A stretch of 25,772 nucleotides of DNA. Origin: a virus. The position numbers and the translations under genes were made by a program. Positions 4,588 through 25,770 of this stretch are shown here, one piece after another. The stretch spans positions 1 through 25,772 of the IMG/VR virus record IMGVR_UViG_3300020193_001072. One strand, given 5' to 3'. The notes beneath the pieces are model-generated. The model saw nothing but the letters and a program-made list of their open reading frames with translations. It did no database searches and was not told the DNA's origin. Position 1 is the first letter of the stretch. Each line of letters opens with the position of its first letter.

Positions 4588-4713
4588 ATGATTAGTTCAG
4601 AAACGCCTTACAAACTTGCTGAGATTATCCGAGATACTTGGCCTCAGATATATAGAAAGTCTGAAAAAGATAAAGATGAAAAAAGTAGCGATATTCGGAT
4701 CCGCAAGAACTGA
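4588..4713 (+). CDS. possible small orf (41 aa) overlapping LOG gene
   Basis: ATG at 4588, one base past the terminator T tract; stop at 4711-4713. The product starts MISSETPYKLAEIIRDTWPQ and becomes Lys/Asp/Glu-rich. The first half looks like a genuine amphipathic helix, whereas the end reads through the start of the next gene in another frame (38-base overlap). No Shine-Dalgarno is visible. It could be a real small gene, translationally coupled to the LOG gene, or the remains of a longer one. Function unknown. Confidence 0.35.
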   Translation: MISSETPYKLAEIIRDTWPQIYRKSEKDKDEKSSDIRIRKN

Positions 4714-5224
4714 TTTTGATTCTGGACTTTATAAGGCAGTAGAAAAACTAGGTAAAAATATTGCAGCAGAAGGATGGGTGGTAGTAACTGGAGGTGGTCC
4801 AGGAACTATGGAAGCGGCAAATAAAGGAGCAATGAGTGCTTGTACTGAGAATTCACTTTGTTCTGTTGCAGAGGCAATCTACCTTCCATTTGAAGAAGGT
4901 GTTAATCCTTATGTTCAGGAATATGAAAAGCATCAGACATTCTATTCAAGATTAAAAACTTTTGCTGATTGTGATGCTTTCGTTGTAACTCCTGGTGGAA
5001 TTGGAACTCTTCTTGAAATGGCAATGATTTATCAATTGGTTCAAGTAAATCACATTGATAGAAAACCAATCATTTGTGTTGGTAGAATGTGGAGAACATT
5101 GAAACATTGGATTGAAGATGAAATGTTAGATAATGGATTTCTTAATAATGAAGAGATGAAACTGATTCATTACGTGGATAGGTTTTCTGAAGCAACACAT
5201 TTATTAAAAGGACTATTAAATTAA
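4676..5224 (+). CDS. LOG-family (lysine decarboxylase-like fold) nucleotide-binding protein
   Basis: From ATG 4676 the protein has 182 residues and a Rossmann-like fold: MKKVAIFGSAR at the first strand, VVVTGGGPGTMEAANKGA in the middle, and the family signature PGGIGTLLEMAMIYQL (PGGxGTxxE). Proteins of this family include cytokinin-activating phosphoribohydrolases (LOG) and close relatives that hydrolyse nucleoside 5'-monophosphates. A longer reading from 4616 (TTG) adds 20 residues unlike the family, so 4676 is preferred although it lacks a clear Shine-Dalgarno. The stop codon is directly followed by the ATG of the dioxygenase-like gene, so the two are likely one unit. A phage role in nucleotide-monophosphate salvage is plausible but inferred. 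Confidence 0.8.
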   Translation: MKKVAIFGSARTDFDSGLYKAVEKLGKNIAAEGWVVVTGGGPGTMEAANKGAMSACTENSLCSVAEAIYLPFEEGVNPYVQEYEKHQTFYSRLKTFADCDAFVVTPGGIGTLLEMAMIYQLVQVNHIDRKPIICVGRMWRTLKHWIEDEMLDNGFLNNEEMKLIHYVDRFSEATHLLKGLLN

Positions 5225-8494: not shown

Positions 8495-11400
8495 ATGGCA
8501 ACTTTTTCCTATACTTCTCAACCATCACAAATAGGAAATGCCATAGTTGGAGAAGTGGTAGGTTCGGTTGTACATTCATATAATGATTCTTCTGCGATAT
8601 ATGTATTAAGTGATAATGAACTTAATTATGGGAGTATAACTAATGTAGTAAATTTATCGGAAGATTACGGAAATATAACCGATCAAATTTACACATCAAG
8701 GCAAGTTGATGATTATGGAGTAATCACACTTAGTGAGACTATTGTTCCTTATGGATCAATATCTCTTGGAAATGCTGTAGATTATAAGTTTATTAAAATT
8801 AATATTGGTGAAGTATCTTTCACTATTTTTGGTCAGGCTTCACTGTTCGTAACTCCTAGAGAATTTGGAAAGGGATCAGTAGGAATCAAAGGCGATTCTT
8901 ATGTAACCGTTCATCTCAAATACTTTGGATCTGGATCTTTATTTAATTTCAATAGTTCATCTGAGGCAACGCTCTACAATCCTCCAGATGATACTCTTCT
9001 CTTTAGTATCACTGGTAGTGGAATTGAGAAGAATACCGAATCTTATGTTGGATCTGGATCTCTTTTTAGCTTTGGTAGCGGATCCCAAATATTATTCTTT
9101 AACGCTCCACCTGGAGAAAATCTATTTAGATTCTCTGGTGCTGCTGTTGAAAGAGTTATTATTGCTCATAATGGATCAGGTAAAGTCATTAATGATATTC
9201 AGATTGATGAAAAAGTAACGTATTCGTATAATGAATCTGCCAGAATTGAAATTATTAATCATGATTATGGATTTGTATCAGAATCTCATCTTGATTTTGA
9301 AGATTACGGAACAATAACTGATACTGAGTTCCTTGGTAGAGAAATTGAAGATTATGGATTTATTGTTCCAGATAGAACTATAATTCCATACGGATCAATT
9401 GTTATTTCTTCGTTTGCTCTTACTCCAAGAACGACGATTAATTATGGTGGTGGTAAATTTGAGATTAGTGGAGAAGCAAAAGTCTTTGTAACTCCAATTG
9501 AAATTGGATCTGGAACTATTAGTGTTAAAGGATCTTCCGGAGATCCTATTGTTGGATTATCGCATAAAGGATCTGGTTCTCTCTTTGGCTTTGGTAGTTC
9601 AACTGAATCCACATTTAAATCTGCTCAGACTGAAGGAATTCTTTATAAGTTTACTGGTACAGCAACGGAATCCTCCTCTAAAGGAACATACTTCGGTTCT
9701 GGATCACTCTTCACATTCGTCAGTGGAACTGAATCTTCGGTTAAAACTCCAGGAGTATCTGGTCTATTCAATATTTCTGGTGATGCATATGTTGTTGCAG
9801 CATCATCTTATGTTGGTTCTGGATCTCTCTTCACATTCGTCAGTGAAACTGAATCCGTAGTATTCAATCCTCCAGAAGAGGGAACTTTATTCAAATTATA
9901 TGGATCTGGAGAAGATACATTCATTTCTGGTGGAAATATTGGTTCTGGTTTTCTCTTTGCAATTGGCGGAGGAACAGATTCGGAAACATATGCAGAACAG
10001 CAAATTGGGGGAGTATTTACATTCTCTGGATCTGCCGTTGCTAGTGATACCAATTCTTATTTTGGATCCGGATCTCTCTTCGCCTTTAGCAGCACAACTG
10101 AAGCAACAGTTGTTAATCCACCAGAAGATACTGTACTATTCAAATTCTATGGTGATGTAGTTGAGAAATCATCAAATTATCATCATGCATCTGGAACATT
10201 CCGATTCAATGACGATTCTGCATATACAATATTTAAGATTGGTCATATTGGATCTGGTGAATTTGGTATTAATGGAGTTGCAACTGAATCTGTATCTCCA
10301 GCTCCACATATTGGATCTGGATCTCTCTTTACATTCGTCAGCTCAACTGAAGCAGTAGTCGCCAATCCACCAGAAGACACAGCACTATTCAAGTTCTCTG
10401 GTAGTGCAGTTGAAACGGCAACGGATTCTTACAACGGATCTGTCACTATTGATGTAGATGGATCTGTAGTTCCAATATTCAGACTTAAGCATATTGGTTC
10501 TGGATCTCTCTTCGCATTCCTTGGTGGAACAGAAGCATTTGTTGTATCTCCAGATGATACTAAGGTTCTCTTTACTATATCTGGAAATGGTATTGAGAGG
10601 CAGACTGATGTTCATGTGGGTTCTGGATCTCTCTTCACATTCATCAGTAAGACCGAATCTACAGTAGTATCTCCAGATGATACTAAGGTCTTATTTACAA
10701 TTACTGGTAATGCTGTTGAGAAGAATACAGAATCTCATCTTGGTTCTGGATCTCTCTTTGGATTTACTGGATCTTCTGAATCTAGAGCAGTATCACCAGA
10801 TGATACTAAAGTTCTCTTTACCATATCTGGTAATGCAGTTGAGAAGAATACCAATTCTTATGTTGGTAAAGGATCTCTATTCTCCTTCTCTGGTGGAACA
10901 GAATCTTACACAGTTTCTCCAGATGATACTAAAGTTCTCTTTAGTATTTCTGGTGAATCTAGAAATAGGATTCTTGCCAATAATATTGGTTCAGGTTCTC
11001 TGTTTGCATTCACTGGTGCCACTGAAGCAAGATCTGTATCTCCAGATGATACTAAAGTTCTCTTTACCATATCTGGTAATGCAGTTGAGAAGAATACCAA
11101 TTCTTATGTTGGTAAAGGATCTCTATTCTCCTTCTCTGGTGGAACTGAATCCGTTGGATTCTCTCCAGATGATACCAGAGAATTATTCAAAATTGGTGGT
11201 GAAGGTTATGGTAGATACTTATTTAATAATATTGGAAGTGGTTCTCTCTTCGCCTTTAGCAGCACAACTGAAGCAACAGTTGTTAATCCACCAGAAGATA
11301 CCGCACTGTTTATATTTGTTGGTAACGTTGAAGAGAAAAGAACCAAGTCTTATATTGGTCAAGGATCTCTATTCTCCTTCTCTGGTGGAACTGAATCAGT

Positions 11401-11821
11401 TGGATTCTCCCCAGATGATATTAAGGTTCTATTTGAATTTACTGGAAATGCAGAAGAATCTATTGTTCCCGCACCTCATATTGGATCTGGAACTTTATTC
11501 TCCTTTATTAATGGAACTGAATCTATTACAGTATTTGCTCCAACTGAACCAGTTATCTTTAGATTTGTTGGTAATGGAGTCGATTCTCAGACATCTTCTT
11601 ACATTGGTACTGGTAGATTATTCGCAATTTCTGGATCTACAGACAGTGTAACTATAGCATATGGCATAGCAAGAGTTCTATTTAATATAATTGGTAGAGG
11701 ATTAGAATCATATTCAAGAGCAAATTATTATGGATTTGCTGAATCTCAATTGACCGGACAATCTGAAGATAGAAAGATAAATTATGCAAGACCTCAACCA
11801 ACACGTCTTATTATAATTTGA
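8495..11821 (+). CDS. giant repeat-built structural protein (1108 aa)
   Basis: About 19 tandem copies of a roughly 41-residue unit run from residue 143 to near the C-terminus. The consensus is Y/H-x-GSGSLF-x-F-x-G-x-TES-x-x-V-S/N-P-P/D-DDT-x-x-LF-x-I-SGNAVEK. Each unit is itself two similar strands-and-turn halves (GSGSLFxFxGxTES and xxVLFTISGNAVEK), which suggests an elongated beta-solenoid or fibre. Residues 27-142 and 243-356 are a separate N-terminal duplication (YGxIT, DYG, PYGSI and FVTP motifs). Gly, Ser, Thr and Phe are abundant and cysteine is absent from the repeats. No signal peptide. The start ATG is preceded by AT-rich sequence without a ribosome site. In the late structural block, so probably a virion fibre or tail decoration; function is inference. 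Confidence 0.75.
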   Translation: MATFSYTSQPSQIGNAIVGEVVGSVVHSYNDSSAIYVLSDNELNYGSITNVVNLSEDYGNITDQIYTSRQVDDYGVITLSETIVPYGSISLGNAVDYKFIKINIGEVSFTIFGQASLFVTPREFGKGSVGIKGDSYVTVHLKYFGSGSLFNFNSSSEATLYNPPDDTLLFSITGSGIEKNTESYVGSGSLFSFGSGSQILFFNAPPGENLFRFSGAAVERVIIAHNGSGKVINDIQIDEKVTYSYNESARIEIINHDYGFVSESHLDFEDYGTITDTEFLGREIEDYGFIVPDRTIIPYGSIVISSFALTPRTTINYGGGKFEISGEAKVFVTPIEIGSGTISVKGSSGDPIVGLSHKGSGSLFGFGSSTESTFKSAQTEGILYKFTGTATESSSKGTYFGSGSLFTFVSGTESSVKTPGVSGLFNISGDAYVVAASSYVGSGSLFTFVSETESVVFNPPEEGTLFKLYGSGEDTFISGGNIGSGFLFAIGGGTDSETYAEQQIGGVFTFSGSAVASDTNSYFGSGSLFAFSSTTEATVVNPPEDTVLFKFYGDVVEKSSNYHHASGTFRFNDDSAYTIFKIGHIGSGEFGINGVATESVSPAPHIGSGSLFTFVSSTEAVVANPPEDTALFKFSGSAVETATDSYNGSVTIDVDGSVVPIFRLKHIGSGSLFAFLGGTEAFVVSPDDTKVLFTISGNGIERQTDVHVGSGSLFTFISKTESTVVSPDDTKVLFTITGNAVEKNTESHLGSGSLFGFTGSSESRAVSPDDTKVLFTISGNAVEKNTNSYVGKGSLFSFSGGTESYTVSPDDTKVLFSISGESRNRILANNIGSGSLFAFTGATEARSVSPDDTKVLFTISGNAVEKNTNSYVGKGSLFSFSGGTESVGFSPDDTRELFKIGGEGYGRYLFNNIGSGSLFAFSSTTEATVVNPPEDTALFIFVGNVEEKRTKSYIGQGSLFSFSGGTESVGFSPDDIKVLFEFTGNAEESIVPAPHIGSGTLFSFINGTESITVFAPTEPVIFRFVGNGVDSQTSSYIGTGRLFAISGSTDSVTIAYGIARVLFNIIGRGLESYSRANYYGFAESQLTGQSEDRKINYARPQPTRLIII
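10796..10899 (+). repeat. 104-bp perfect repeat, copy 1
   Basis: Base-for-base identical to 11042-11145, lying two repeat units (246 bases) upstream. Spans from the DDTKVLFTISGNAVEK half through KGSLFSFSGGT. Confidence 0.9.
11042..11145 (+). repeat. 104-bp perfect repeat, copy 2
   Basis: Identical to 10796-10899. Identity at silent positions shows recent duplication or gene conversion. Confidence 0.9.
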
Positions 11822-12700: not shown

Positions 12701-15700
12701 ATGGCAGATTTTAGACTTGGAAGACTAAAGTTCAATTGGAGAGGCGATTGGTATGGAAATACCGCCTATGTAATTGACGATATTGTTAAATTTGGTGCAA
12801 ACACTTATGTTTGTATTTCAAATCATACCTCAACATCTACCTCTAATAATTGGGCAAGTGTTGATGGAGCAAAGTGGTCCTTACACGTAAAAGGTATTGA
12901 ATTTAGAGGTAACTGGAGTTCTGGAACTTTTTACAATCCAAATGATATTGTAAAATTTGCTTCTGGTACTTATATTTGTGGAATTGCCCATACTTCTGCC
13001 GCAAGTGAAGTTTCTTGGTTTCAAAATGACCAAGCAAAATGGACTCTTCTTGCTGATGGTCTGACCAATAGAGGAGTATTCCAAACCAATACTTTCTATA
13101 GACCAAACGATCTTGTTAAGTACGGAAATAGTGTATATATTGTAAATACTGGATTTAGTACTAGTTCCGGGTTTGGAACTGCTTATACTACAGAGTTTGT
13201 TCAAGGATTTGAGTATGAAGATACTTGGAATTCTGGAACAGCATATCAAGTTGGAGATATTGTAACCTATGGTGGTTATAATTATGTTGCAACTTCTATT
13301 CATACTAATAAACCACCTAGTGAGAATTTAGCAAACGATTGGGATATTCTTACTACTGGATTTAGTATTGCTGGAACTTATAGCACTTCGACTGCGTATA
13401 TACCTGGAGATGTTGTAAGATATGGTGGATATTCGTATGTAGCAAAAACGAATAGTACCAATAATGATCCTATTGATACTAATTATTGGGATCTTATTAT
13501 TAAGGGATTTAACTGGGTAGGAACTTGGACTTCAACCACTTACTACAAACTTGGAGATTCTGTAAGAAAAGGTAGCAATAGTTATGTTAGTGTAGCATCT
13601 TCAAACTTTAATCAAGATCCAGTAACTGATGCTCTTGGTGGATTTTGGAATACATTATCTGCAGGTGCCGAAACTAATGTTCTTACTACAACTGGAGACT
13701 TAGTTTATCAATCTGGAGCTGGTCCTGGTAGACTTCCAATTGGAACAAACGGTCAAGTACTTACTGTAAGTAGCGGTGGAGTACCAAATTGGGAGAAAAA
13801 TAATACTACCCATCCAGTATTTTATGTTACTGAAGAGGGAAGTGATTCCAATGATGGTTCTAATATTAGCAGATCATTTGCTACTATTAAACACGCTTGT
13901 GGAATTGCAACTGGTCCAGCTACAATTTATGTAAAAGCTGGTGTATATAATGAAGTTCTTCCAATTATTGTTCCTGAAGAAGTATCTATTGTTGGCGACA
14001 ATATCAGAACCACTAAGATTAGACCTGCTGCTGGAAATTCAAATTATCAAGTAGTTGGACTTGGATCTACTGCGAATAACGTTTCTTATGGATCTACCGT
14101 TCGTAATGGATCTGGTACTAAGGTCGCAAGAATTCTATATTCAAATTATGATGAAACTCAAGTTCATATTCAACCTTTAGTTGGTGGTGCTTGGAGTGAT
14201 AGTGACACTTGGTTTGATTCCGGAAATTCAATCGGAATTTCTACAGTTATTACCAGAAGTAACTCTGAAGCAACAATGTTTATGTTGAGCAATAAGACAA
14301 TGCTCAAAGATCTTGTCATGGAAGGTATGACTGGATTTAGTCAAGCTGGAGTTATAAAATCTGTAAGCGGAAGTATTACTGGAACTTCCCTTTCCTCTTC
14401 TGGATTAAATGATGATTTAATTGGAGTAACTTTAACTGGAACTGGAGTTGCACCAGAAACAACAATTGTTAGTGTTACTAATAGCACAACTGCACAAGTC
14501 AGCGTAGCACAGACAGTTTCTCCTACTTCTATTACTTATACTGCACAACCATACGATTTAAATAATGCTACAATTAAAGGAGTATTCGTAGCATTAAATC
14601 CATCTTCTCCAATTACAAAGTCTCCATATGTATCTCAATGTTCAGCATTCTCTACTGGAGGTGTAGGTGCAGTTGTTGATGGTAAAGTTCACAGAACTTA
14701 TGAAAATACTCCACAAGTATCGAACAAATCTATCGTTTTTGACTCGTTCACCAATATTCATGATTATGGAGTTGGATTCTGGGTCACAAACAATGCAGCA
14801 TCGGAATTTGTTTCGTGCTTTACTTATTATGCTTTTATTAGCTACTGTTCAACTCGTGGCGGAAGAATTAGATCTCTTGCAGGAAATAGTTCTTGGGGAA
14901 CTTATGGATTAGTAAGTTCTGGTTATAATACTTCAGAACAATATCTCACAGGAAAAGTTGAGGGATTATCTTTAAGTTATCTACCACTTACAGTTGAGGG
15001 TTCTGGATTTAGTGCTGGTGAAAGAATTATTGGTAATACATCTACTGCAGTTGGATATATTCATAGTGTCCAAACTGGAACAAGCAAAATTCTATATTCA
15101 TTAATTAGTGCTGGAGCAGGAAAAACTGCTGGTCTTGGAACTGGATTTACTCGTGGAGAATTGATTAGAGGAATTGGATCTGGAACTACTGCATTCCTTT
15201 CTAATAATTCCAGTGCTAATACTGGTCAAGCTGGATTGACATTAGTTCTTGCTGGATTATCGACCGCATTTGAACCTGGTGGTAGTATAGAATTCCTCAA
15301 AGGAAGTGGTAATGGCGGAGAAAATAATGTTCAAATTGACGGTGCTGATCCGTTTACATTTGTTGTTCAAACAGTAAGTCGTTTGGGTGCAACTGGACTT
15401 GGAACAGTATTTGTTCAGAGAGGTGCATTAGGAACTGTTGCAGCTGCTCATACTGGTGGAATTGCGAATGTTCATTCTTATCCACTTGCTGGAGCGACAG
15501 CTACACTTTCAGTTCCAGTTGCTACATCTGATACAACAATTTTTGTTAATGATAGTAGCGGATTTGTAAATAATGGATTCGTTCTTACTGCTAAGAATGA
15601 ATTGATGAAGATTACCAATATTCCAACATCTACTTCAATTGTAGTTACTAGAGGATCTCAAGGTGCAGGTGTTGCAAATACTTATGCAACTAATGACACT

Positions 15701-16402
15701 ATAACTGCTATTGGTCAAAGTTCTATTATATCTCCAGCTCAATATCTTTGGAAGGATGTAACTGGAATCCAAACATTTATTAGATCTTCCGTTGCTTCCG
15801 GATATGTTGCTAATAATTATGTTAAAATTGATAATGAATTTATGAAGATTAATTCTAGATCAACGGATCCATTTGGATTTACGATTACGGTTCTTGCTGA
15901 AGAAAAAGGAAATCAGACATATGATGAGCAAGACATTAAAGTGAGATATCTTTATAGTCAAGCAAGATTTACTGGGCACGACTTCCTTCAAATTGGAACT
16001 GGTGGAACTTCTACAACTAATTGGCCAAACGTTCCTTCAGTTAAACCAATTCCTTCTAATGAAATTATTGAAGGATTTCCAGGTCGTGTTTATTATGTTT
16101 CCACTGACCAAGAAGGTAACTTCCGTGTTGGTAAGTATTTCCGAGTTAATCAGGCAACTGGATCCGCAACATTGAATGCCTCTGCATTTGACCTGTCTGG
16201 TCTTACATCTTTGAGACTTGGTTCAATTGGTGCTCAGTTGGGTGCTTCTATTAGTGAATTTTCAACTGACCCAACTTTATCTGCCAATAGCAATACTAAA
16301 GTTCCAACACAGGCTGCTGTAAGAGCATTCGTAGAAAATTATGGCGGATCTAGTCTTGAAGAGTCTAAGATTTACTCTTACTTCTTATCGCAGAGTCTGT
16401 GA
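12701..16402 (+). CDS. large tail fibre with six carbohydrate-binding-like modules and beta-helix (1233 aa)
   Basis: Residues 11-321 hold six tandem modules of about 50 residues, each W-x(5-9)-Y-x(3)-D-x-V-x-x-G-x-x-Y ... W, the pattern of chitin/cellulose-binding CBM5/12-type modules (for example TWNSGTAYQVGDIVTYGGYN). Residues 330-366 carry GDLVYQSGAGPGRLPIGTNG and a PNWEK end, a linker common in phage fibres. From about 372 a pectate-lyase-like/DUF1565-like beta-helix begins (FYVTEEGSDSNDG, SFATIKHACGIA, ATIYVKAGVYNEVLPIIVPE, VSIVGDN) and is interrupted by Gly/Thr/Ser-rich strands. The C-terminus has RVYYVSTDQEGNFRVGKYFR and a TKVPTQAAVRAFVEN end typical of cyanophage fibres. Likely a host-surface-binding fibre that may bind or degrade polysaccharide; no catalytic residues can be assigned. 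Confidence 0.8.
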   Translation: MADFRLGRLKFNWRGDWYGNTAYVIDDIVKFGANTYVCISNHTSTSTSNNWASVDGAKWSLHVKGIEFRGNWSSGTFYNPNDIVKFASGTYICGIAHTSAASEVSWFQNDQAKWTLLADGLTNRGVFQTNTFYRPNDLVKYGNSVYIVNTGFSTSSGFGTAYTTEFVQGFEYEDTWNSGTAYQVGDIVTYGGYNYVATSIHTNKPPSENLANDWDILTTGFSIAGTYSTSTAYIPGDVVRYGGYSYVAKTNSTNNDPIDTNYWDLIIKGFNWVGTWTSTTYYKLGDSVRKGSNSYVSVASSNFNQDPVTDALGGFWNTLSAGAETNVLTTTGDLVYQSGAGPGRLPIGTNGQVLTVSSGGVPNWEKNNTTHPVFYVTEEGSDSNDGSNISRSFATIKHACGIATGPATIYVKAGVYNEVLPIIVPEEVSIVGDNIRTTKIRPAAGNSNYQVVGLGSTANNVSYGSTVRNGSGTKVARILYSNYDETQVHIQPLVGGAWSDSDTWFDSGNSIGISTVITRSNSEATMFMLSNKTMLKDLVMEGMTGFSQAGVIKSVSGSITGTSLSSSGLNDDLIGVTLTGTGVAPETTIVSVTNSTTAQVSVAQTVSPTSITYTAQPYDLNNATIKGVFVALNPSSPITKSPYVSQCSAFSTGGVGAVVDGKVHRTYENTPQVSNKSIVFDSFTNIHDYGVGFWVTNNAASEFVSCFTYYAFISYCSTRGGRIRSLAGNSSWGTYGLVSSGYNTSEQYLTGKVEGLSLSYLPLTVEGSGFSAGERIIGNTSTAVGYIHSVQTGTSKILYSLISAGAGKTAGLGTGFTRGELIRGIGSGTTAFLSNNSSANTGQAGLTLVLAGLSTAFEPGGSIEFLKGSGNGGENNVQIDGADPFTFVVQTVSRLGATGLGTVFVQRGALGTVAAAHTGGIANVHSYPLAGATATLSVPVATSDTTIFVNDSSGFVNNGFVLTAKNELMKITNIPTSTSIVVTRGSQGAGVANTYATNDTITAIGQSSIISPAQYLWKDVTGIQTFIRSSVASGYVANNYVKIDNEFMKINSRSTDPFGFTITVLAEEKGNQTYDEQDIKVRYLYSQARFTGHDFLQIGTGGTSTTNWPNVPSVKPIPSNEIIEGFPGRVYYVSTDQEGNFRVGKYFRVNQATGSATLNASAFDLSGLTSLRLGSIGAQLGASISEFSTDPTLSANSNTKVPTQAAVRAFVENYGGSSLEESKIYSYFLSQSL

Positions 16403-16438: not shown

Positions 16439-16759
16439 ATGGCATCTGGTATTTTAGGTCAGTCAGCACCTTCTGCAACCACACTTACTACTGTATATAC
16501 AGTTCCTGCTAATACATTGTCTGTCGTTAACGTGAGCATAACAAATCGCGGATCTTCATCCGCGAGTGTTAGACTTGCTCTTGCTGCGGCATCTACTCCA
16601 GTCAATAGTGAATATATTGAATATGATGCAGTAATTCTTCCGAACGGTGTTTTGGAAAGAACTGGAATTGCATTAAATGAAACTAAAAGAGTTGTAGTAT
16701 ATTCATCTACCGCAGATACTTCAGTTTCAGTATTTGGACTTGAGCAATCTACCCTGTAA
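16439..16759 (+). CDS. small structural protein (106 aa), fibre-associated
   Basis: All-beta protein: MASGILGQSAPSATTLTTVY, TVPANTLSVVNVSITNRGSS, VRLALAAASTPVNSEYIEYD and a final VYSSTADTSVSVFGLEQ. The layout (attachment-like N-terminus, two or three strand pairs, VxVxVxG end) is seen in small cyanophage virion proteins beside fibre genes, possibly a collar or fibre-cap subunit. It lies directly before the Cys-rich fibre-tip gene (17 bases, GGAGGT ribosome site) and is probably co-transcribed with it from the late promoter at 16406. No defined family is assigned. Confidence 0.65.
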   Translation: MASGILGQSAPSATTLTTVYTVPANTLSVVNVSITNRGSSSASVRLALAAASTPVNSEYIEYDAVILPNGVLERTGIALNETKRVVVYSSTADTSVSVFGLEQSTL

Positions 16760-16776: not shown

Positions 16777-18372
16777 ATGGCAAGATTTTTAGGATCTGCA
16801 GCGGGAAGAACTGCAGGGGCATCTACTATAGAAGCTTCATTTACAAGAGCAGCAGTTTTTAGCACTCCTGGAGCAACAACATTTAATGTTCCACCAGATG
16901 CAAAAAAAGCAAAAGTTTTTGTCATTGGAGCGGGTTCCGATTATAGATCTGGAACATATTGTTTTCTTTCTGATAATTGTTGTTCTGGTGTAGATTTTCC
17001 GAGATCATGTTATTGTGTATGTTTCACTGGACATCTTACTGGTGCTGGTGGTGGATATGCTGAAAGGACTTATGATTCTGGAATTGCTGGTAAAACATTA
17101 ACAATTAATGTTGGATCTTCTGGTGGACTTAGTGCAAGTAGTGTTGCGGCATCTGGATATACAACAGTTAGTGCAACCAATGCTTCTGATACGGTTCATT
17201 CATGGTCTTGTACTGGAAATAGTGCTGCTAGAGATAATAGTAATGATAATCCAGTAGCATTTAATTTCCAATTACCAAGATGTGGACATGCAAATAATAT
17301 TTCTGGATATTATAATTACGGTGGATGCGCTTCAGGTGGTGACATCAATAGAAATGGTGGAAGAGGAGTTTTAATTCCCGAATTTTTATATGATGGTTAT
17401 CTTGATGGTGTTTCTTGTATGGCTGGTGGCGGTGCTATTTCTGGTAATACGAGTTCTTGCTGGATTAATCCAGTATTTAACTGCTACTGTATTCTTGGAT
17501 ATCATTATGTATTTGGAAGCTATTGTGGATTTAATAATGGTTGGAGTAACCAGACTTCTTGTGGATGTTGGGGACTTTGTGCTGCAACATCAAACCTTTG
17601 TGCGTGTTCTGGTTTGTGTTGTAGAGCAAGCTCAAGATTCTCATTTGCTGGAAGATATTCTACAAAGTGTACATGTAACATATCTGGGGAAGTTCAAGGT
17701 GGTCCATTAGGAAATAATTTCCCAGGATCTGGTGATACCGCAGTGATTAAAGACAAACCAATTGGAGTTGGTGCTCAGTCTGGAAATAGTTCAGATATTG
17801 GAAAAAGAGGATCTTCCGAACAGATGGTAACCTCAGTTACTTATGGAATAGATAGAACAACTAGTGGAGGAACAAGTTGCTGTTTACAGGTTTCATATTC
17901 CCATTATAGTTCTGGATATGATTACTCTTTTGGTGGAACTCAACTTAGTTGCTATTGTTCTGTATATTATCCAGGTTGTTTCTCCAATTGTACTGCATTT
18001 AAAGGTGCTAGTTTTGCTCAATGGTGTTACAGATGTATTGGAACTGGTTGGACATACGTATTTGGCAGTAACTTTTCTGGTGGTGCTCATTGCTGGTGTA
18101 GTCCTTATGGACTTGTTCAATGCTCTGCTACCAATTGTACTGATTGCAGAAATAGATTCTTAAATGTTGGATATATTAATGATAGATCATCTATCATTAA
18201 TGATTCTTGGGAAATTCCTCTTTCTACTTTAATTAGAAATAATGCAACGAATGTCAATGATATTAGATATGGCAACGGTGCTACGTTTGATTCTGCAGCA
18301 GGTTTCGGTGGTGGAGGCAATAGACTTTACCCAACTGGTGGTCAAGGATTAGTTGTCGTACTTTACGGTTAA
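16777..18372 (+). CDS. glycine-rich, cysteine-rich distal fibre / receptor-binding protein (531 aa)
   Basis: The N-terminus (FTRAAVFSTPGATTFNVPPDAKKAKVFVIGAG) is the beta domain that begins many glycine-rich phage tail-tip proteins (usually FxTPGTxTFTVPAGVTxVxVxxxGGGG). The C-terminus (DSAAGFGGGGNRLYPTGGQG ... VVVLYG) is the matching Gly-rich closing strand. Between them, residues 62-457 contain 36 cysteines, many as CxC or CC (CYCVC, NCYC, CGC, CAC, CTC, CWC), with abundant Gly, Ser, Tyr and Trp. This is far above any other protein in the window. The layout resembles T4-family distal-tip adhesins in which Gly-rich motifs form a polyglycine sandwich with hypervariable loops; the cysteine enrichment suggests disulfide or metal cross-linking. 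The next gene may be its chaperone. Role as the host-range determinant is inferred. Confidence 0.75.
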   Translation: MARFLGSAAGRTAGASTIEASFTRAAVFSTPGATTFNVPPDAKKAKVFVIGAGSDYRSGTYCFLSDNCCSGVDFPRSCYCVCFTGHLTGAGGGYAERTYDSGIAGKTLTINVGSSGGLSASSVAASGYTTVSATNASDTVHSWSCTGNSAARDNSNDNPVAFNFQLPRCGHANNISGYYNYGGCASGGDINRNGGRGVLIPEFLYDGYLDGVSCMAGGGAISGNTSSCWINPVFNCYCILGYHYVFGSYCGFNNGWSNQTSCGCWGLCAATSNLCACSGLCCRASSRFSFAGRYSTKCTCNISGEVQGGPLGNNFPGSGDTAVIKDKPIGVGAQSGNSSDIGKRGSSEQMVTSVTYGIDRTTSGGTSCCLQVSYSHYSSGYDYSFGGTQLSCYCSVYYPGCFSNCTAFKGASFAQWCYRCIGTGWTYVFGSNFSGGAHCWCSPYGLVQCSATNCTDCRNRFLNVGYINDRSSIINDSWEIPLSTLIRNNATNVNDIRYGNGATFDSAAGFGGGGNRLYPTGGQGLVVVLYG

Positions 18373-18389: not shown

Positions 18390-19112
18390 ATGTATTACAT
18401 TAGAACTATAAAAAATAATTATGATATTGATGTTGTAATTGATGTAACTGATAATACGGATTTTGTTCAAACTTCTGGGTTGGATTGGATTGAAATTGGA
18501 AATATTCAAGCTGAAAATGGAAATTATTATTATGATGGTAAAATTATTTCTGTAGATTCCGATGATTATGTAATTATTGAGAATATTATCAGAGAATCGG
18601 AAGAACCAGAAAGACTCGAAAGAGAAAGACTTGAAAGAGAATTTGAAGAAAATGCACAAAACGAAATACAAGAATTTTTTGAAAATCAATTGTTAGAAAA
18701 TACAACAGATGACACTGCACCAGAACCACCAGATCCATTAGATGATGAAGCAATTGCTGCTGCAGAATCTGCAGGTGCTGTAGATCCAAGGAATTTTACT
18801 CGACCTAAAGCATATCCAATTCTTGGAGTTGAAAGTAATGAATCTAATCTTAGAGATTGGGAAAGAAATTATAAAAATATATCTTTTAGTATCAATTCAT
18901 TGAATTCTGGAAATTTTACAGTTGTAGATAATGTTGCTATTTTTGATCCAGAATTAGAATTTCCAGACGGACATAAACAAAGTCATTTTCCATTTCCAGA
19001 AGATGATGTTAATGGATATATTCAACATTTAATTGATGTAAGACAAACATATAGAGATCTTTTAGATACTATTTGTACAGATTTAAATTTACCTCCAATC
19101 CCAGAAGAGTAA
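18390..19112 (+). CDS. acidic protein, possible tail-fibre assembly chaperone (240 aa)
   Basis: Very acidic. An N-terminal region (MYYIRTIKNNYDIDVVID ... DWIEIGNIQAENGNYYYDGK) is followed by a charged coiled-coil-like helix (residues about 68-100, Glu/Arg/Leu-rich), a Pro/Asp-rich linker, and a C-terminal part ending VRQTYRDLLDTICTDLNLPPIPEE. The N-terminal YYYDGKII-type phrase and the ending (Arg-x-x-Tyr-Arg-x-x-Leu-Leu ... Pro-x-x-Pro) resemble Caudovirales tail-fibre assembly proteins, which often sit right after a distal fibre gene. The gene follows the Cys-rich fibre tip at 17 bases. The chaperone role is inference from position and end motif; it could instead be a structural protein. 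It is the last gene of the structural block. Confidence 0.55.
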   Translation: MYYIRTIKNNYDIDVVIDVTDNTDFVQTSGLDWIEIGNIQAENGNYYYDGKIISVDSDDYVIIENIIRESEEPERLERERLEREFEENAQNEIQEFFENQLLENTTDDTAPEPPDPLDDEAIAAAESAGAVDPRNFTRPKAYPILGVESNESNLRDWERNYKNISFSINSLNSGNFTVVDNVAIFDPELEFPDGHKQSHFPFPEDDVNGYIQHLIDVRQTYRDLLDTICTDLNLPPIPEE

Positions 19113-19142: not shown

Positions 19143-19169
19143 TAAATTTGTATTGTTTTTGGGGTGTTT

Positions 19170-20093
19170 ATGAAAAAAGTTTTTGTAATTAATGGTGGTG
19201 CCGGTAGAGTAATTTGTTCACTACCAGCATTACAAAAATATTATAAAATTAATGGTCCAGACTTTTACATTCTTTCCGAATCTGGTCTGGATTTTTTTAT
19301 TGGTCATCCAGAGCTTCAAGATCTTACTTTTGATCTTGGACATAAAGGATTGTTTGAAAATATCATTAAACCAAATGAATTGGTTACATTAGAGCCTTAT
19401 AGAGAACACGGATATTATAATCAGAAGAAATCGTTGACAGAATCTTTTGATAAATTAATTAATAATACGGAAGATCATTCGGACTTAGAAAAACCAGAAA
19501 TTATTTTATCTAAACAGGAAGAGATTCAGGCACTTGATTGTATTAATAATGTTAAAGAATACCATAAAAAGAAAAAGACCGTAGTTATTCAACCATTTGG
19601 AAGAACTATAAATCAGCATAAAACTGGACATACATTTGATCCATCAAGTAGATCATTGAGTACAGATGATTACTTTTATATTTCGGAAAGAATAAGAAAA
19701 AAATATAATGTAATTGCTTTTTCTGAAATTAAATTTGAAAATGATAAAAACATGTATGTTGATACAGGGATTAGACAGTGGGCTGCAATTGTAGAAGCAG
19801 CGGACTATTTTGTTGGTATTGATTCTGTTGGTCAGCACATGGCATATGCTTTTAATAAGCCTGGAAGCGTTATTATAGGATCAACTTTTGCAGAAAACAT
19901 TTCTTATCCAAAATATTTTAATATCGTAGAAAAGAAAAATAATAAGAAAAAATATTCTCCAATTAGAATTCATGGACTAGACGGAGATCTAGCAGACAGG
20001 TATAATGATACTTGTATGGATTTTACTCAACGGGAATTGGAAGAAATTACTAATAATATTCTACATCACATCAAACAAAAAATCGGAGAATAA
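19170..20093 (+). CDS. glycosyltransferase, GT9/heptosyltransferase-like (307 aa)
   Basis: The start MKKVFVINGGAGRVICSLPALQ has the nucleotide-sugar transferase opening of GT9 (ADP-heptose:LPS heptosyltransferase) proteins. The second half contains VVIQPFGRT, YFYISERIRKKYNVIAFSE, and the donor-site-like QWAAIVEAADYFVGIDSVGQHMAYAFNKPGSVIIGSTF, which parallels GT9 (AALIxxADLxVGxDSGxxHxAxAxxxP). An in-frame GTG at 19164 is possible; the ATG at 19170 with GGGGTG before it fits better. A heptose acceptor or donor is plausible because an ADP-heptose pathway lies downstream, but specificity cannot be read directly. It is followed four bases later by the carbamoyltransferase gene, so the two are likely one unit. 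Confidence 0.7.
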   Translation: MKKVFVINGGAGRVICSLPALQKYYKINGPDFYILSESGLDFFIGHPELQDLTFDLGHKGLFENIIKPNELVTLEPYREHGYYNQKKSLTESFDKLINNTEDHSDLEKPEIILSKQEEIQALDCINNVKEYHKKKKTVVIQPFGRTINQHKTGHTFDPSSRSLSTDDYFYISERIRKKYNVIAFSEIKFENDKNMYVDTGIRQWAAIVEAADYFVGIDSVGQHMAYAFNKPGSVIIGSTFAENISYPKYFNIVEKKNNKKKYSPIRIHGLDGDLADRYNDTCMDFTQRELEEITNNILHHIKQKIGE

Positions 20094-23265: not shown

Positions 23266-23288
23266 TACTATATAATAGATTGATTTTG

Positions 23289-23690
23289 ATGAAAACCGTA
23301 TTTGTTAATGGTACATTTGACGTTCTTCATAGAGGGCATCTTGAATTACTAAATTATGCCAGGTCTTTTGGTGATTATGTTGTCGTTGGTATTGATACTG
23401 ATGATAGAGTGAAAGAAAAGAAAGGAGAATCTAGGCCAGTTAATACGACTGAAGATAGGGCATTTATGCTAACGAATCTAAAATCTGTAGATGAGGTTAG
23501 ATTCTTCAGCACCGATAAAGAACTAGAAGATTTGGTAAAATCTGTAAAACCTGATATAATGATTGTTGGATCTGACTGGAAAGGTAAATCAGTTATAGGT
23601 TCATATTACTCAGCAGAATTAAAATTTTTTGATAGAATAGATGGATACTCTTCAACAAAGATCATTCAAAGTATTATTGATCGGGGATAG
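23289..23690 (+). CDS. heptose-1-phosphate adenylyltransferase-like (HldE C-domain type, 133 aa)
   Basis: Nucleotidyltransferase of the HldE-C/RfaE-II and TagD family: VNGTFDVLHRGHLELLNYAR carries the GxFDxxHxGH nucleotide-binding motif (HRGH, residues 14-17), VGIDTDDRVKEKKGESRPVN is the next conserved segment, VKPDIMIVGSDWKGKSVIG is characteristic of the heptose enzyme, and SSTKII (121-126) parallels the STTxII end. It would form ADP-heptose from heptose 1-phosphate. A glycerol-3-phosphate cytidylyltransferase activity is the main alternative; the adjacent heptose kinase and epimerase favour heptose. The ATG at 23289 matches the family start; a TTG at 23280 would add three residues. It overlaps the kinase gene by 50 bases. 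In most bacteria these two enzymes are one fused protein in the opposite order. Confidence 0.85.
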   Translation: MKTVFVNGTFDVLHRGHLELLNYARSFGDYVVVGIDTDDRVKEKKGESRPVNTTEDRAFMLTNLKSVDEVRFFSTDKELEDLVKSVKPDIMIVGSDWKGKSVIGSYYSAELKFFDRIDGYSSTKIIQSIIDRG

Positions 23691-24402
23691 TTGTGAAGAT
23701 GAATATATGTATGGACGTTGCGAAAGAATAAGTCCAGAAGCTCCCGTTCCCGTGATGGAGTTTTCCAGAATGGAAACTAAACCAGGAATGGCATCTAATG
23801 TATATTTCAATTTGCAAGCATTTAATATTGAAGTTACTTTTCTGACAAATTCAGAAAAAATAGTAAAGACCAGATTTATAGATGAAAAATCCAATCAACA
23901 AATACTAAGGGTTGATAATGAGAAATCAATAAAACCACTTCTTCTTCCAGTAATGACAAACAGTTTTGATGCTGTTGTTATATCTGATTATAATAAAGGG
24001 TATCTTACATATCAGAAATTATTTGAAATTGTTGATTATACAACATGCCCCATTTTTATCGATAGTAAAAAAACTGAACTACCAAATAAACAAAATTGTT
24101 TCATTAAAATTAATGAAACAGAGAATGAAAGTTTAGTTGGAGATTATGATAATATCATTATAACAAAAGGTGCGGAAGGTTGCGTTTATAAAAATACTTT
24201 ATATCCAGCATCTAAAGTTAATGTATATGATGTAGTTGGAGCTGGAGATACATTTTTATCGGGATTAGTTTATGGATATTTAAAGTATAATGATATTATA
24301 AAAGCAATAAGAATAGCAAATAAAGCGGCATCAATTGCCGTTCAAAATCCTGGAACTTATATTTTAAATGAAAAAGATGTCGATTTACTGCGTAGATATT
24401 GA
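23641..24402 (+). CDS. heptose-7-phosphate kinase-like (HldE N-domain type, shortened, 253 aa)
   Basis: PfkB/ribokinase-family sugar kinase. GDSCEDEYMYGRCERISPEA followed by PVPV (15-38) closely matches the HldE kinase start (GDxxLDxYxxGxxxRISPEAPVPV); KPGMASNVYFNL (48-57) replaces the usual PGGAANVA; DYNKGYLT (116-123) and DVVGAGDTFLSGLVYGY (197-213, catalytic Asp203) complete the active site. It would phosphorylate D-glycero-D-manno-heptose 7-phosphate to the 1,7-bisphosphate. The usual domain is about 320 residues; here a block of roughly 40 residues after VTFLTN and before the substrate-loop Arg (KTRFID) is missing, which removes part of the lid region. It starts inside the adenylyltransferase gene and ends inside the HAD gene. 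Activity needs checking because of the missing block. Confidence 0.85.
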   Translation: MDTLQQRSFKVLLIGDSCEDEYMYGRCERISPEAPVPVMEFSRMETKPGMASNVYFNLQAFNIEVTFLTNSEKIVKTRFIDEKSNQQILRVDNEKSIKPLLLPVMTNSFDAVVISDYNKGYLTYQKLFEIVDYTTCPIFIDSKKTELPNKQNCFIKINETENESLVGDYDNIIITKGAEGCVYKNTLYPASKVNVYDVVGAGDTFLSGLVYGYLKYNDIIKAIRIANKAASIAVQNPGTYILNEKDVDLLRRY

Positions 24403-24706
24403 TGGTACTATATGTACTAATGGTGACTGCGAATCTTGTAAGTATGAAGGTAGCATTCCAATAAAAGATAATATAGATAAGATCAATAAATTATATGATG
24501 AAGGTAATACAATTAAATATTTTACCGCTCGTGGTATGGGAAGATATAAAGATGATATACAAAAATCAAAAGATAAATTTTATAATTTAACTAAAATGCA
24601 ATTAGATATTTGGGGATGTAAATATCACGAACTTATTCTTGGGAAACCATCTGCAGACTACTACATAGATGATAAGGCAATAGAGGCAAATGAATTCTTC
24701 AATTAA
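24377..24706 (+). CDS. HAD-type phosphatase of polysaccharide gene clusters (109 aa)
   Basis: Small HAD-superfamily protein: CVDIDGTIC (nucleophile and acid/base Asp pair), IPIKDNIDKINKLYDEGNTI, KYFTARG (motif II Thr), LTKMQLDIWGCKYHELILGK, and KPSADYYIDDKA (motif III Lys and motif IV Asp pair). I recognise this arrangement from HAD proteins in capsule and LPS clusters and in marine phages. In this operon the open step is heptose 1,7-bisphosphate dephosphorylation (GmhB), but the protein is much shorter than typical GmhB (about 185 residues), so that role is a hypothesis. ATG 24377 gives a family-like start; ATG 24368 is in frame and equally lacks a ribosome site. It overlaps both neighbours. 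Confidence 0.8.
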   Translation: MSIYCVDIDGTICTNGDCESCKYEGSIPIKDNIDKINKLYDEGNTIKYFTARGMGRYKDDIQKSKDKFYNLTKMQLDIWGCKYHELILGKPSADYYIDDKAIEANEFFN

Positions 24707-25049
24707 AGTGGTCCCCAAAGGATGGGGATTTGAAAAGTGGATCGTTAATAATGAGCAATATTGCGGAAAACTTTTATACTTTATAAAAGGTAAAAGGTGT
24801 TCTTGGCATTATCATAATATAAAAGACGAAACTTTTTATATTCAATCTGGAAAACTTATATTGTTTTACGGAGAAGATGATGATATTAACTTGGCACAAA
24901 AAAAAGTCCTAAGGAAGGGAGATCATTTCCACGTTCCTGTAGGACTTAGGCATAGAATGTATGCTTTAGAAGATACTGAGATGTTTGAATTTTCAACTCA
25001 ACATCTCGATAGTGATAGTATTAGAGTTATTCAAGGAGATACTCTTTGA
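24690..25049 (+). CDS. cupin-domain sugar-enzyme-like protein (119 aa)
   Basis: Single cupin fold with both motifs: SWHYHNIKDETFYIQSG (His40, His42, Glu47) and GDHFHVPVGLRHRMYALEDTEMFEF (His88 and the PxGxxH element). The start MNSSIKVVPKGWGFEKWIVN, the YCGKLLYFIKGKRCSWHYH phrase and the overall length resemble phosphomannose isomerase/mannose-1-phosphate guanylyltransferase C-terminal cupins and stand-alone sugar-isomerase cupins. A sugar-phosphate isomerase or epimerase is likely in this context, but substrate is not readable. The ATG lies inside the HAD gene (17-base overlap); the 3' end overlaps the oppositely oriented epimerase by 23 bases (25027-25049), so no terminator separates them. 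Confidence 0.75.
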   Translation: MNSSIKVVPKGWGFEKWIVNNEQYCGKLLYFIKGKRCSWHYHNIKDETFYIQSGKLILFYGEDDDINLAQKKVLRKGDHFHVPVGLRHRMYALEDTEMFEFSTQHLDSDSIRVIQGDTL

Positions 25050-25770
25050 CTGATTTAAACTTATAATTACCAATCCATTTCATATCAGCGCAAGTATAGT
25101 CTTGATATTTACCTTTAAGATGTTCGGGGAAGTCGATGTATTCGATTTCCCCTTTTTCTTTTTCTGCTACTAATTCAGCAACTTCTTGAAATGAAACTGG
25201 CGATCCTGTTCCAAGATCATATATTCCAGATTCTGAATTATTATTCAAAACAATATCTACTACATCATCAACACAAATAAAATCTCTAAGGAATTTATCT
25301 GAACCTTTGAATAATTTTAATTTTCCAGTTTCACGAATTTGCTTTGTGAATTTTGATACAGGACTTGCTTGATCTTCTTTGTGTTCTTCTCCTCCACCAT
25401 ATACATTAAAGTATCTGAATCCTTGAATTGATTTAAACTTATCTAAATTATCCTGAACGAAGTAATCAATTTGCAATTTTGTAATTGCATAATAGTTTAG
25501 TGGATTAATTACTTTTAATTTTTTTGTTTGATTTCCATATACAGATGCTGATGAAGCATACTTTACTGGAATTTGATATTGAATTGCTTTCTCAAATAAG
25601 AACAATGTGAATGCTACATTATTGTGATGTAATGTTTGTATATTTTTTTCTGTTGTAGATGAGATTGCTCCCTGATGAATGATTAATGATACTTCATTCC
25701 ATCTATCGAATCCGCTTATAAACTTGTATGCGTTTTCTTTTTCTACTTCTATTATGGGTTCATTAATTTT
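25027..25770 (-). CDS. hldD: ADP-heptose 6-epimerase (HldD-like), 5' part beyond window
   Basis: On the minus strand; the frame stays open to the window edge, so about 247 residues of C-terminal sequence are seen and the NAD-binding GxxGxxG start lies outside. Visible: a segment WNEVSLIIHQGAISSTTEKN as in HldD, KYASSASVYGNQ (catalytic Ser/Thr region), NYYAITKLQIDYFV (YxxxK), RYFNVYGGGEEHK, KLKLFKGSDKFLRDFICVDDVV, GIYDLGTGSPVSFQEVAELV, and a final KWIGNYKFKSVKEYLLE. These are family hallmarks of ADP-L-glycero-D-manno-heptose 6-epimerase. The gene is transcribed toward the cupin and overlaps its end by 23 bases. Other heptose genes (a GmhA isomerase, for example) may lie further along this strand, beyond the window. 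Confidence 0.88.
   Translation of the reverse strand, partial: KINEPIIEVEKENAYKFISGFDRWNEVSLIIHQGAISSTTEKNIQTLHHNNVAFTLFLFEKAIQYQIPVKYASSASVYGNQTKKLKVINPLNYYAITKLQIDYFVQDNLDKFKSIQGFRYFNVYGGGEEHKEDQASPVSKFTKQIRETGKLKLFKGSDKFLRDFICVDDVVDIVLNNNSESGIYDLGTGSPVSFQEVAELVAEKEKGEIEYIDFPEHLKGKYQDYTCADMKWIGNYKFKSVKEYLLE

Follow-up and report, generated by a model that had tools for sequence, protein, structure and literature searches.

The window considered here (the whole stretch of DNA analysed, i.e. positions 1 to 25,772 of the 25.8-kb IMG/VR virus record IMGVR_UViG_3300020193_001072) harbours psbA- and psbD-like genes, as read from their translations, together with genes matching the PHROGs tail fibre family phrog_9851 and a carbamoyltransferase in the same database; since these occur together, the window is, on its gene content, assigned to a T4-like marine cyanophage. 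The subject of the present analysis is a cysteine (Cys)-rich protein, proposed to be a fibre tip, which is encoded on the + strand at 16777..18372 by an open reading frame (ORF) that starts with ATG at 16777, runs uninterrupted for 531 amino acids and ends with a stop codon at 18370-18372. Upstream of it lie a 1233-residue tail fibre (12701..16402, +; phrog_9851, E 0) and a conserved fibre-associated protein of 106 residues (16439..16759, +; tail fibre phrog_11338, E 7.6e-12), of which the latter marks the locus in P-SSM2-like phages and has relatives in 121 IMG/VR stretches.

Translation and counting give exactly what the sequence-only reading had claimed, namely 36 Cys among 531 residues (6.8%), all within residues 62-457 (62, 68, 69, 78, 80, 82, 145, 169 and onwards to 449, 454 and 457). 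The other 24 ORFs of the window have 63 Cys in 7707 residues (0.82%) and the neighbouring tail genes 12 in 3777 (0.32%), while the binomial probability of at least 36 Cys in the tip protein is ~1e-21. Glycine (Gly) makes up 15.1% of the protein, in short runs only, beside the Cys modules. No match to the protein was obtained in Pfam and PHROGs, or by tblastn against 50,697 phage records. A chance ORF or translation artefact was considered and ruled out by the conserved full-length relatives described below and by a ratio of non-synonymous to synonymous substitution rates (dN/dS) below 1 (0.3-0.7 over the whole gene, between relatives); the ORF is therefore a real gene.

The protein alternates between a predicted TNF-like framework and Cys-rich inserts. 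The N-terminal part of the framework (residues 1-57, 16777..16947, +; strands from ~20) is devoid of Cys, is modelled by AlphaFold2 with a predicted local distance difference test score (pLDDT) of 85-90 at residues 21-50 and matches the profile of a sister family introduced below. The first Cys-rich insert follows (residues 58-87, 16948..17037, +; pLDDT <50), in which C68 is invariant and C62 and C69 are nearly so in the alignment of relatives. Framework strands without Cys (residues 88-137, 17038..17187, +; pLDDT 61-87), with a dN/dS below that of the inserts in most pairs, lead into the main Cys-rich insert region (residues 138-477, 17188..18207, +), which is delimited by motif and module analysis and carries seven of the eight Cys columns invariant in 14 sequences. 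The C-terminal framework (residues 478-531, 18208..18369, +), again free of Cys, ends in the last strand GLVVVLYG (pLDDT 81-84 at 521-531), and the equivalent end is kept in Cys-poor relatives. With no Cys at residues 1-57 and 458-531, the description of Cys-rich inserts framed by a Cys-free framework holds.

Relatives were gathered in marine virus contigs, first through the 106-residue neighbour as an anchor and afterwards by searching with these relatives once aligned. The 13 relatives obtained have 489-582 residues, 25-36 Cys and 36-55% identity. Of the Cys columns, eight are invariant across all 14 sequences, another four occur in 13, and 39 are private to one sequence. Pairwise identity within the inserts is 0.69 for Cys, 0.71 for Gly and 0.43 for other residues, and the Cys are thus conserved among homologues, a comparison for which the sequence-only reading had called (69% against 43% for insert residues other than Cys and Gly). 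A pattern scan of prokaryote genomes returned no relatives of the window family.

The spacing of the Cys is selective. The tip protein has eight CxC where 3.2 would be expected (p 0.011), and the window family as a whole has 79 where 32 would be expected, the maximum reached in 500 shuffles being 46. CC (33 against 32) and CxxC (32 against 32) are both at chance level in the window family, so that of the CxC and CC pairs remarked upon earlier only the former are enriched here; the larger sister family, by contrast, does have an excess of CC (393 against 262). The main insert carries modules of the type aromatic-x-x-x-FG (also written G-[YW]-x-Y-x-FG beside CxC), namely YHYVFG (242), YDYSFG (381) and WTYVFG (425), with a CxC close to each. 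Three distant relatives (L115, L116 and L118) have the YDYSFGGT..C.C module ahead of the YH..FG module, which it follows in the window protein, and its match to the window module beats all of 1000 shuffles in each of the three; by this comparison, a loop module is relocated between slots of one scaffold.

Furthermore, six of the eight pairs compared have a higher dN/dS in the inserts than in the framework (0.35-0.60 against 0.11-0.21, i.e. ~2.3-3.7-fold). The two values are alike in the pairs at either extreme, the closest (L108/L112, with few synonymous changes) and the most distant (window/L105, with a high dS). The suggestion of a hypervariable region is accordingly upheld in part: faster inserts and relocating modules speak for it, while dN/dS stays below 1 and the Cys-rich tips show zero amino-acid changes among four isolates of S-CAM1 and three of S-CAM3. 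Because of this dN/dS pattern and these invariant tips, the inserts are a surface that is variable over long times, under purifying selection overall and not hypervariable over years, with a diversity that lies between lineages and includes module relocation.

Cultured cyanophages carry similar proteins at the corresponding position. P-SSM2 has two of them, PSSM2_304 and PSSM2_306, both annotated 'hypothetical', at ~356 residues apiece and 36 Cys each (10%). They fall in PHROGs 35878 and 4205 (labelled 'unknown function'), which represent a larger class, the sister family referred to above, with 246-391 residues, 7-11.5% Cys and one to three tandem copies. One to three such genes in tandem lie downstream of the fibre gene in S-SSM7, Sf-FS3, S-CAM1 and S-CAM3, dozens of IMG/VR contigs carry Cys-rich genes at the same place, and the culture hosts identified for the class are Prochlorococcus or Synechococcus in every case. 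These proteins have in common with the window protein the locus, the richness in Cys and Gly and the N-terminal domain (hhalign of window family residues 33-136 against 78-168 of the larger class, E 5.5e-5, probability 66%). However, they are shorter and occur in tandem copies, their insert modules differ, and the hidden Markov models of PHROGs 35878 and 4205 give no hit from the window protein or its relatives. Gly-rich proteins downstream of the anchor are bimodal in Cys content, with 52 at 0-3%, none at 3-4.5% and 112 at 4.8-11.5% (counts of proteins that were not dereplicated); the window protein falls in the upper mode and lies, like the other Cys-rich proteins, downstream of the fibre and the 106-residue protein. 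Taken together, the Cys-rich fibre tips appear, from comparison of sequences and predicted models, to constitute a previously unrecognised class in marine cyanophages, in which a TNF-like/glycine-rich phage tip would bear a Cys-rich, receptor-facing part. A search of the open-access literature returned no paper on Cys-rich cyanophage tips.

Some observations on individual contigs may be placed alongside. Downstream of the anchor, L089, L093, L095, L099, L100 and L102 encode proteins of 510-512 residues with 11-15 Cys (2.1-2.9%) and 10-11% Gly, reported as lying between the modes. A 250,613-base, P-SSM2-like contig with matches to Photo_RC (psbA/psbD-type) carries two Cys-rich tips (L019, 6607-9459). 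Equal-sized pairs of Cys-rich tips occur in single phages at L008, 6612-9407, and L012, 6621-9624 (349 residues with 34 Cys twice, and 373 with 33 twice), possibly reflecting recent gene conversion between the copies. A window-type tip with 31 Cys (L118, 6001-7470) comes from a virus contig of 357,559 bases, possibly that of a jumbo phage, in which psbA gave no match.

In other marine phages, the same place is filled by Cys-poor proteins with the same framework and 21-36% Gly. Pfam PF21722 (Gly_rich_2) is matched above its cut-off by the Cys-poor tips L059 (E 9.6e-9) and L082 (E 1.2e-8) of this locus but not by the window protein, which gives no hit, the best of its relatives reaching only E 0.0029; L059, searched against phages, gave no match. 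Same-fold homologues lacking the Cys had been named beforehand as the finding that would count against the proposed role of these residues. The same-place relatives recovered (L059, L038, L045 and L091, with 2-4 Cys) lack the Cys-rich inserts altogether, so that the Cys travel with the inserts and the proposal is left intact. The gene at 19164-20093 of the window has counterparts near 38 of 38 Cys-rich loci and a carbamoyltransferase lies near 32 of the 38, while neither is found near any of 18 Cys-poor loci; this split in gene context goes with lineage and need not reflect function. As a lineage marker, psbA is uninformative, since the contigs are partial: it matched 4 of 48 Cys-rich contigs (3 above the cut-off) and none of 34 Cys-poor ones.

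The AlphaFold2 model of the window protein is confident only at residues ~20-57, 90-137 and 520-531 (mean pLDDT 38; ~85 in the framework). This predicted framework resembles the Bxb1 tail tip (Z 9.0, root-mean-square deviation (rmsd) 4.1, 143 residues), the Pam3 fibre 7YFW (Z 8.0, rmsd 4.0, 132 residues) and ALK (Z 7.2, rmsd 2.9, 110 residues). The last of these likenesses concerns the TNF-like glycine-rich (TG) domain of ALK/LTK, an animal receptor, and implies no function in common. A model of the sister family (mean pLDDT 58) resembles Pam3 gp24 (Z 15.3, rmsd 3.1, 173 residues; Foldseek E 4e-5), and its top matches in a viral library include P-SSM2, S-CAM3 and many 'glycine-rich domain' phage proteins; a sequence search of the PDB with the family profiles gave no meaningful match. 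Synteny with the fibre gene and the predicted TNF-like/glycine-rich tip framework (Z 8-9 with the Pam3 fibre and Bxb1 tail tip) thus agree with the original designation as a fibre-tip type protein.

Among known systems, gp38 of T-even phages and of Salmonella phage S16 (PDB 6F45) is a tip adhesin that adjoins the fibre gene and has glycine-rich motifs and variable segments. It has a beta-helix, whereas the window protein has a predicted TNF-like domain, and gp38 is not known to be Cys-rich. The tail fibre gp24 of the freshwater myocyanophage Pam3 (PDB 7YPX/7YFW), with which the gp38 adhesin has been compared, has a conserved stem and a variable distal tip proposed for host recognition (PMC9608196). 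The window protein is like Pam3 gp24 in its predicted TNF-like beta-sandwich with loops arising from one end and in its proposed fibre position. In contrast, gp24 has a glycine-rich lattice (39% Gly, 12 motifs) with adjacent glycine-rich strands ~5 Å apart (PMC9608196), whereas the window protein has 15% Gly and 36 Cys in its loops; further, the N-terminal helical shaft by which gp24 docks to the baseplate is absent from the window model, in which no N-terminal helix is seen, confidence is low over the first 20 residues and the earliest confidently predicted strand starts at residue 24.

The explanation favoured here, with somewhat better than even confidence, is that the tip is a fibre-end adhesin of a T4-like cyanophage, in which cross-links between Cys, probably disulfides that form once the cell has lysed, would keep the receptor-binding loops in place. 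A TNF-like beta-sandwich (residues ~20-57, 88-137 and the C-terminal strand) would bear long distal loops, in which Cys-rich modules would replace the glycine lattice of the Pam3 type as the rigidifier. In an extended strand, the two Cys of a CxC would point to the same side, an arrangement for which enrichment of CxC and not of CxxC is expected, and a distance of ~5 Å between strands, as in Pam3, would allow cross-strand disulfides. Since phage tails assemble in a reducing cytoplasm, the Cys would pair mainly after lysis, upon leaving the host cell for oxic seawater, and the cross-linked loops would make the exposed binding surface long and exchangeable, yet rigid. We infer the fibre-end position, trimerisation, receptor binding, the disulfides and their timing; the support for the adhesin-tip reading is so far anatomical, not chemical.

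Several observations weigh against this explanation. The inserts are without a confident model (pLDDT ~20). Among 81 class representatives, 43 have an even and 38 an odd total of Cys, hence complete pairing within the chain is not the rule. Pairs of Cys columns covary no more than other column pairs, the strongest covarying Cys pairs (phi 0.97, 0.90 and 0.87) being one clade-linked triple, and a literature search found no virion proteomics or receptor data for any class member. The odd counts and the lack of covariation can be reconciled with disulfides between chains, with a share of free thiols or with bound metal.

Bound metal forms the basis of a rather unlikely alternative, in which the Cys of the same tip adhesin (with a few His or Asp) would bind Zn, Cu or Fe, so that the tip would be stiffened in the manner of a metallothionein or would act as a lure for host metal-uptake receptors. 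CxC, the spacing enriched here, is typical of metallothioneins, and the odd Cys counts and three-Cys clusters of the sister family are as consistent with metal as with disulfide. Phage tail fibres that bind iron have been proposed (PMC11705849). However, CxxC stays at chance in the window family, a motif scan of the tip protein finds no HxH (iron) motif, histidine (His) accounts for only 6 of its 531 residues, the Cys are scattered across 400 residues instead of forming a single compact domain, and there is no good match to metal-binding families (FLYWCH at E 0.017, in one relative only). Were the Cys instead largely reduced, with thiol exchange or oxidation at the host surface, the redox state would gate attachment; many highly conserved Cys look structural, however, and exposed free thiols are unlikely to last in oxic seawater, which makes this reading highly improbable even though odd Cys numbers leave free thiols in many members and covariation gives no pairing signal. 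The match of the predicted framework to a solved fibre tip, together with the Cys-poor glycine-rich tip proteins holding the same position in other marine phages, also argues against the view that the protein is no tip adhesin but has some other accessory role, in the virion or in assembly, at the fibre locus. This last reading draws on the lack of direct evidence for presence in the virion and on weak matches of one or two relatives to the 'tail fiber assembly' phrog_863 (E 0.0097 and 3e-5), and is judged quite unlikely.

In a bolder extension of the fibre-end adhesin explanation, which is put forward as a doubtful proposition, a widespread adhesin class would be made reduced and locked after lysis by oxidation or metal capture, so that extracellular redox or metal conditions would switch the tip to its binding state. 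If this is true, the exchangeable Cys modules would form a repertoire for receptor binding that resembles the disulfide-rich loops in the ultralong complementarity-determining regions of bovine antibodies. Mortality in Prochlorococcus and Synechococcus is shaped by cyanophages, whose host-recognition proteins are mostly uncharacterised; PSSM2_304 and PSSM2_306 of P-SSM2 and SSSM7_114-116 of S-SSM7 are likely receptor-binding tips in culturable phages. A phage adhesin scaffold usually built of glycine also has a sister class built on cysteine, raising the question of how a protein with >30 Cys from a reducing cytoplasm gets cross-linked or metal-loaded extracellularly.

The tip gene is followed by that of a 240-residue acidic protein (18390..19112, +), whose homologues adjoin only the window-type tip among the loci searched, and which gave no match in the PDB and Pfam. 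By likeness to gp25, the chaperone of Pam3 gp24, it is a candidate tip chaperone; it is more variable than the tip, with 34-38% identity between relatives against 51-55%. Elsewhere in the window, a 1108-residue protein without Cys or Trp (8495-11821) has many repeats of the GSGSLFxFxSxTE type and belongs to phrog_11522, where no function is assigned. A sugar-type cluster at 23280-25770 (nucleotidyltransferase-like, PfkB-like kinase, phosphatase-like, cupin and epimerase-like) apparently has the same order as PSSM2_309-313 of P-SSM2. Between psbD and the tail genes, an ORF at 4616-5224 carries a GGGPGTMEAANKGA motif and is, as read from its translation, LOG/lysine-decarboxylase-like.
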